DNA of 64,000 nucleotides. It comes from Archangium sp. Lineage in GTDB: Bacteria; Myxococcota; Myxococcia; Myxococcales; Myxococcaceae. Position 1 is the first letter of the stretch. Each line of letters opens with the position of its first letter. Under the pieces are notes generated by a model. The model had not been told where the DNA came from, ran no database searches, and saw only the letters and a program-made list of their open reading frames with translations. The DNA is taken from the NCBI GenBank assembly GCA_030695565.1, contig JAUYRZ010000005.1, forward strand, positions 32,016-96,015. The letters run 5' to 3'. The position numbers and the translations under genes are program-made. Below are positions 63,022-63,579 of the stretch, in pieces.

Positions 63022-63579
63022 ATGCTCTCCTTGCTCCTCACCTCGGTGTTGGCCGCGCAGCCGATGGTCGGTGGTCTCGCGCCCGACTTCACCGTGAAGG
63101 ACGTGGATGGCGTCGAGCTGAAGCTCTCGTCGCTCGTCGAACGTGGCCCTGTCGTGTTGGCCTTCTTTCCCAAGGCCTTCACACCTGGCTGAACGCGTGA
63201 GCTCACCGCGTACCGGGACCGGTATGCCGACATTCAGAAGAACGCGGGCACGGTGATCGCCATCTCCACGGACGACGTGGAGACGAGCAAACGGTTCCGC
63301 GACTCGCTCAAGGCGCCGTACCACTTCGTGGCCGACGAGAGCGCGAGCCTGGTGAAGGCCTTCGACGTGAAGGTGTTCCTCTTCACGATCGCCAGGCGGG
63401 TCACCTTCGTGGTCGGCCCCGGGCGGAAGATCCTCTCCATCAGCGAAGGCAGTGACGCGATCGATCCGTCGGGCGCGGTGAACGCGTGCAGCCTCAAGCC
63501 GCCCGAGGCGCTCCGATTCATGACGGGTCAGGGCACCGCCGATGCGGGCGCGCCTGACGCGTCGCAGCGTTGGAAGTAG
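63022..63579 (+). CDS. Probable selenoprotein peroxiredoxin (Sec57 encoded by TGA)
   Basis: 185 aa if TGA 63190-63192 is read as selenocysteine. ATG 63022 has GAGG at normal spacing. N-terminal hydrophobic stretch MLSLLLTSVLAAQ suggests export. Thioredoxin fold of the BCP/AhpC type: LAPDFTVKDVDGVEL, then FFPKAFTPG-U-TRELTAYRD, where P50, T54 and U57 fit the Px3Tx2C active site, and the conserved Arg in ARRVTFVV. The frame continues without other stops, with normal codon bias, to 63579. Only one Cys (C156) could act as resolving residue. It would reduce peroxides. A conventional caller splits it into two ORFs. Confidence 0.85.
63193..63227 (+). promoter_or_regulatory. Candidate bacterial SECIS element
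   Basis: Directly after the TGA. An 8-bp stem (63208-63215 with 63220-63227, one G-U pair) closes a GGAC loop at 63216-63219. The loop begins 23 nt after the TGA and starts with G, within the limits described for bacterial SECIS elements (loop about 16-37 nt away, G in the first two loop bases). Not folded by software. Confidence 0.7.

Follow-up and report, generated by a model that had tools for sequence, protein, structure and literature searches.

Why would a peroxiredoxin frame carry a stop codon at the very residue that attacks the peroxide? The question is raised by a gene near the end of the window, that is, the whole stretch of 64,000 nucleotides of Archangium sp. DNA analyzed here (Table 1). 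Its 186 codons run from the ATG at 63022 to a TAG at 63577-63579, with a single internal stop, the TGA at 63190-63192. Taken as a whole, the locus is very probably best explained as encoding a peroxiredoxin with selenocysteine (Sec) at residue 57, where selenium would take the place of sulfur at the peroxide-attacking position. For the TGA itself, a reading as Sec is very likely.

A single frame and the codon that interrupts it

A preliminary description of this DNA had proposed one peroxiredoxin frame interrupted at 63190-63192, and this is what is found, the TGA being the only internal stop. The read-through protein matches the Pfam AhpC-TSA family over residues 16-137 (103.5 bits, with a gathering score of 26 as the cut-off), and third-position GC is 0.84 on the 5' side of the TGA and 0.91 on the 3' side. 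The residues around the codon read P50-K-A-F-T54-P-G-TGA57-T-R-E, and the spacing of P50, T54 and the TGA places the latter on the peroxidatic position of the PxxxTxxC motif. The earlier claim that the TGA replaces the peroxidatic Cys is confirmed by these residues and by the homologues, which have only Cys or TGA at this position.

Table 1. Positions of the peroxiredoxin gene, its elements and the adjoining frame, numbered from the first letter of the window.
Feature	Position	Strand	Remarks
SsnA-like amidohydrolase ORF, possible operon partner	61385..62998	+	229 bits vs. cut-off 444 (NF005540)
GAGG, ribosome-binding-like site 5' of ATG 63022	63012..63015	+	read from the sequence
Peroxiredoxin gene (AhpC/TSA family)	63022..63579	+	185 residues with TGA 63190 read through
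In-frame TGA, codon (residue) 57, peroxidatic position of PxxxTxxC	63190..63192	+	putative Sec codon
Predicted bSECIS hairpin	63208..63227	+	8-bp stem, loop GGAC at 63216-63219, -11.3 kcal/mol
Codon of Cys156, the only other Cys, proposed resolving residue	63487..63489	+	Cys in 114/114 homologues

A search of 145 genomes of the order with the read-through protein gave a match in 136 of them at E <= 1e-8. The locus set consists of the 114 listed places scoring at least 91.7 bits, distributed over 111 genomes and three families, plus six weaker ones (120 loci), and the homologues align over most or all of the peroxiredoxin length. Alignment at residue 57, proposed in the preliminary description as a check, returned only Sec (TGA) or Cys codons in the 114 loci: TGA in 53 and TGC or TGT in 61, with no other codon and never TAA or TAG. 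A further set of named records, which overlaps with the first, was reduced from 251 relatives to 80, with TGA in 52, TGC in 26 and TGT in 2. These span Archangium, Myxococcus, Corallococcus, Hyalangium and Anaeromyxobacter together with 27 loci (L198-L224), 25 of which have TGA; the Archangium violaceum Cb vi76 record (L182) has the TGA form. Of the 27, all but L220 bear the names of Acidobacteriota groups in their titles, the phylum being given explicitly for L198.

Could the frame nevertheless be a pseudogene, an ordinary Cys peroxiredoxin inactivated by a nonsense mutation? A frame broken by TGA is what such a mutation would leave, and a single base change turns a Cys codon into TGA. The distribution of codon 57 over three families argues against it, as do the Sec machinery in the genome (see below) and the evolution of the downstream part. 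The DNA 3' of the TGA evolves as coding sequence: for residues 58-175, dN/dS is 0.141/0.366 and 0.148/0.620 for the two nearest relatives, and 3' of the TGA the ratio is 0.24-0.51 over the five Sec relatives tested and 0.71 against the Cys-form L035. As dN is below dS, we infer that this part is translated. A random nonsense change at exactly this codon had already been judged unlikely, and the 114 loci bear that judgment out; because the TGA is common to relatives, inactivation is a very unlikely origin of the frame. The preference of the preliminary description for a selenoprotein over a pseudogene is thus supported by codon 57, by coding-type evolution, and by the selA, selB, tRNA-Sec and selD genes and the hairpin described below.

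It is just as improbable that the TGA arose at 63190 through faulty sequencing or assembly of a Cys gene. The gene does lie within the last 1 kb of its contig, which ends at window position 64000, but three congeneric genomes (G049, G052 and G050) share both the TGA at codon 57 and the hairpin sequence.

How do such genes appear in databases? The search found 319 database homologues. Among the 120 listed, 46 are shorter than 130 residues, and three (P0077, P0096 and P0101) are, except for the first residue, the post-TGA parts of L022, L025 and L024, respectively. The earlier claim that automated annotation splits or misses the gene therefore holds for its relatives. Because databases often list selenoprotein genes of this kind as a C-terminal piece, the antioxidant gene complement of myxobacteria and Acidobacteriota can be underestimated. 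The listed homologues of at least 145 residues (n = 74) have Cys at the active site in 71 cases and Trp in three full-length proteins (P0041, P0061 and P0104). In these, Trp probably reflects a TGA that gene callers read under a TGA = Trp code.

Decoding genes and a predicted hairpin

The absence of selABCD from the genome had been named as an observation that would speak against Sec; all four genes are present above cut-off in the assembly that holds the window (G000; 8.5 Mb, 134 contigs, listed as 100% complete). The tRNA-Sec scores 69.1 bits (cut-off 47) and has the anticodon tca according to ARAGORN, while selA scores 547.6 bits (cut-off 267.9), selB 295.6 bits (242.25) and selD 375.3 bits (125). 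Among the 52 genomes with a TGA copy, selA is found in 50 and a tRNA-Sec at E <= 1e-8 in 43. The nine in which no tRNA-Sec was found at this threshold are mostly incomplete, but include G003 and G010, which are 97-98% complete; selA was not found above cut-off in two of the 52. Neither selA nor tRNA-Sec was found in G124 (87% complete, TGA copy), and G050 (80% complete, TGA copy) has tRNA-Sec and selB, with selA not found. The machinery does not predict the state of codon 57, because selA is also present in 56 of the 59 Cys-only genomes.

Downstream of the TGA the RNA can fold into the hairpin GCGUACCG-GGAC-CGGUAUGC, with its loop 23 nt 3' of the UGA. The consensus rules for bSECIS elements given in section 5 of PMC13188914 specify a loop of 3-9 nt, a stem of 4-16 bp, a G in the first two loop positions, a spacing of 16-37 nt and an energy of at most -7.5 kcal/mol; the hairpin at 63208-63227 conforms to all of them (GGAC, 8 bp, GG, 23 nt, -11.3 kcal/mol). 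In this DNA the same rules are unspecific: besides 51 of 53 TGA genes they admit 45 of the 61 Cys genes and, at other codon positions, 372 of 571, and owing to this background pass or fail was dropped as evidence for Sec. Of the bSECIS search recommended earlier, the rule-conforming hairpin at a conserved place stands; the rules themselves are unspecific here.

The hairpin is conserved in most TGA relatives. Over the 114 loci, all eight stem pairs form in 36 of 53 TGA genes vs. 6 of 61 Cys genes. If only genes encoding the peptide AYRDRY are compared, the full stem is present in 33 of 42 TGA genes and 4 of 28 Cys genes, and random synonymous codings of that peptide give it in 10.7% of cases. 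At least seven of eight pairs form in 41 of 53 TGA genes vs. 12 of 61 Cys genes, a level reached by 56% of random synonymous codings. The Fisher value for the link between hairpin and Sec in families f1 and f3 is 7e-12 with relatedness ignored; on phylogenetically independent pairs the link did not reach significance (six pairs, median p 0.5), and this comparison has no power. The five TGA genes of family f2 form 3-5 of the eight pairs, so the stem is not formed there.

In an alignment of 36 distinct TGA sequences, from a total of 40 with the four of family f2 set aside, 97.6% of stem cells pair. One pair is doubly changed, from A-U to U-A, in three of the 36 rows; pairing is kept, and at the protein level one Tyr becomes Phe and another becomes Asn or Ser. 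The Acidobacteriota relatives have a different hairpin, GAUACC-AGGCU-GGUAUC, at almost the same offset from the TGA. Its alignment has 13 distinct sequences, which represent every TGA locus of L198-L224 except L212 (24 of 25); five rows show a C-G to U-A double change, again with the pair kept. In single-sequence folding the Archangium hairpin does not stand out: the three shortest folds have z values of -0.65 to -1.10 and the 81-nt fold has 0.04, and the hairpin is missing from the minimum-energy structure of the 141-nt fold (z -2.22).

Bacteria can read through UGA. Alternatively, the TGA might be suppressed as another amino acid, such as Trp, or serve as a regulated stop, in either case without Sec. 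The three Trp homologues would fit this, and the Sec reading rests on sequence rather than on peptides. On the other side are the 71 of 74 database homologues with Cys, the 114 loci with nothing but Cys or TGA, the tRNA-Sec(UCA) with selA, selB and selD, and a hairpin placed as a bSECIS, which together leave suppression without Sec very improbable.

Probable exchange of selenocysteine and cysteine

With Sec as the reading of the TGA, the gene has switched repeatedly between its two forms. A protein tree with column 57 masked requires at least nine Sec/Cys state changes, six of which are forced by well-supported branches. For direction, 18 of the 80 named-record sequences were added, with a chosen outgroup that does not form one clade. 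With equal costs, parsimony places Sec at the root and counts 3 gains and 10 losses; doubling the cost of a gain gives 15 losses and no gain, and doubling the cost of a loss gives a Cys root with 15 gains and 3 losses. The direction of change is not fixed, because it depends on cost and the outgroup is not one clade. For peroxiredoxins, the table in PMC1794560 has five Cys-to-Sec and no Sec-to-Cys conversions, unlike the equal-cost (and cost-dependent) count obtained here; a Sec-to-Cys reversion would therefore be the new part.

Do some Cys genes keep a trace of a former Sec state? The full stem can form in six of them (L032, L037, L039, L092, L102 and L105). L039, a Cys form with the complete 8-bp stem, lies in G076, a 100%-complete genome in two contigs in which no selA or selB was found above cut-off and no tRNA-Sec at E <= 1e-8; selB is present in the related genome G078. 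It is possible that some of the full-stem Cys genes hold fossil SECIS elements. Cys genes that share the peptide form the full stem (4 of 28) no more often than random synonymous coding would give, which weakens the case for fossil hairpins.

A wider proposal, which we consider tentative and rather doubtful, is that the exported Sec57/Cys156 subfamily found in Myxococcota and Acidobacteriota began as a selenoprotein and went back from Sec to Cys many times. Fossil SECIS hairpins would then persist in some Cys genes, among them one in a genome from which selA, selB and tRNA-Sec are missing (G076). If true, it would contradict the Cys-to-Sec-only table for peroxiredoxins in PMC1794560 and would make a record of selenium loss traceable within one genus. 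The family contains Sec and Cys genes that are close relatives, some of the latter with a stem that can still form, so that one genus suffices to test the direction and cost of Sec/Cys exchange.

The enzyme, known systems and neighboring genes

How might the protein work? SelB would recognize the hairpin at 63208-63227 and deliver Sec-tRNA to the UGA codon. The product, probably exported, would reduce hydroperoxides with the selenolate of Sec57; Cys156 would then resolve the selenenic acid, giving a selenenylsulfide for reduction by a thioredoxin-like partner. The invariance of Cys156 favors, on balance, its role as the resolving residue. Export is suggested with similar, modest confidence by the hydrophobic N-terminus, as judged by eye; the N-terminus is also hydrophobic in the relatives whose sequences were read. 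The structure model has a mean pLDDT of 88.6, and its closest folds are PrxQ/BCP and AhpE structures.

PrxQ/BCP (NF006960 and NF053650) is similar in its TPGxTxE active site and provides the nearest solved chains by both sequence and fold (2cx3, 5epf and 3drn). The protein nevertheless falls below the equivalog cut-offs (62.2 vs. 140 and 55.9 vs. 260 bits), has a hydrophobic N-terminus, and differs in having Thr, not Cys, at the peroxidatic +5 position, with its second Cys at +99. In PrxQ the +5 position is the site of the resolving Cys. The thioredoxin-dependent peroxiredoxin PrxU (NF040737) shares the AhpC/TSA family, but this protein scores 34 bits against its cut-off of 270.

Bacterial Sec-peroxiredoxins as a kind are already known (PMC1794560, PMC13188914, PMC5029168). 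They are an established selenoprotein family according to table entries in PMC13188914 and PMC5029168 (78 organisms, 91 proteins). The preliminary description overrated the novelty of the gene in this respect: such proteins have been in print since 2006, when three were reported from Anaeromyxobacter dehalogenans (PMC1794560); Anaeromyxobacter is also named in the abstract of PMC1914089. The gene very likely belongs to this known kind. The known proteins (PF00578, TxxU; PMC1794560, PMC13188914, PMC5029168) resemble it in the AhpC/TSA fold, in Sec at the peroxidatic position of PxxxTxxU, in a bSECIS-type hairpin 3' of the UGA and in the occurrence of Cys homologues in relatives. In the open-licence PMC literature, no paper on a Sec-peroxiredoxin in Myxococcaceae was found. 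New here are the extent of the subfamily, the repeated Sec/Cys switching, the invariant Cys156 and two further candidate selenoproteins in the genome.

Both of these candidates are of the UxxC type and lie on the minus strand. The first (L238; G000:C130:36000-40000) is a second AhpC/TSA-type frame, whose one in-frame TGA lies at contig position 37820 in an HWUPYC motif; it has a lipoprotein-like N-terminus and a hairpin 3' of the TGA. The second (L239; G000:C30:100500-104500) has its one in-frame TGA at contig position 102409, in FGULLC, scores 115 bits to the SelL-related redox protein NF040769 (cut-off 120) and has a GCGACCGG/CCGGUUGC hairpin 3' of the TGA. To look for other selenoproteins, the same genome was scanned with a covariance model of 54 nt of Sec genes, trained on 36 of 40 distinct TGA sequences (without the four of family f2). 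The peroxiredoxin gene, itself in the training set, scored 73.9 bits. Seven other matches, at E 0.09 or worse, were taken as chance, and no TGA-interrupted redox protein appeared in the translations inspected. A Sec formate dehydrogenase was not found, the five matches to molybdopterin oxidoreductases being without an internal stop.

The amidohydrolase frame ends 23 nt 5' of the peroxiredoxin gene on the same strand. Its homology begins near 61721, so that the real start is probably downstream of 61385, and it also misses the SsnA cut-off of TIGR03314 (225.2 vs. 455.5 bits). An amidohydrolase homologue immediately precedes the peroxiredoxin gene, in the same orientation, in 77 of the 85 loci of the window's family (27 of 32 with TGA and 50 of 53 with Cys). 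The other two families have it in none of their 29 loci; some loci are truncated at contig ends. G045 (L088 and L102) and G048 (L082 and L105) each have one TGA and one Cys copy; in both genomes the Cys copy adjoins the amidohydrolase and the TGA copy does not. On the other side of the gene, window positions 63597-64000 hold a cysteine-rich, lipoprotein-like ORF with a TGGG-type repeat, which runs off the contig end and whose homologues come after the peroxiredoxin in the closest relatives.
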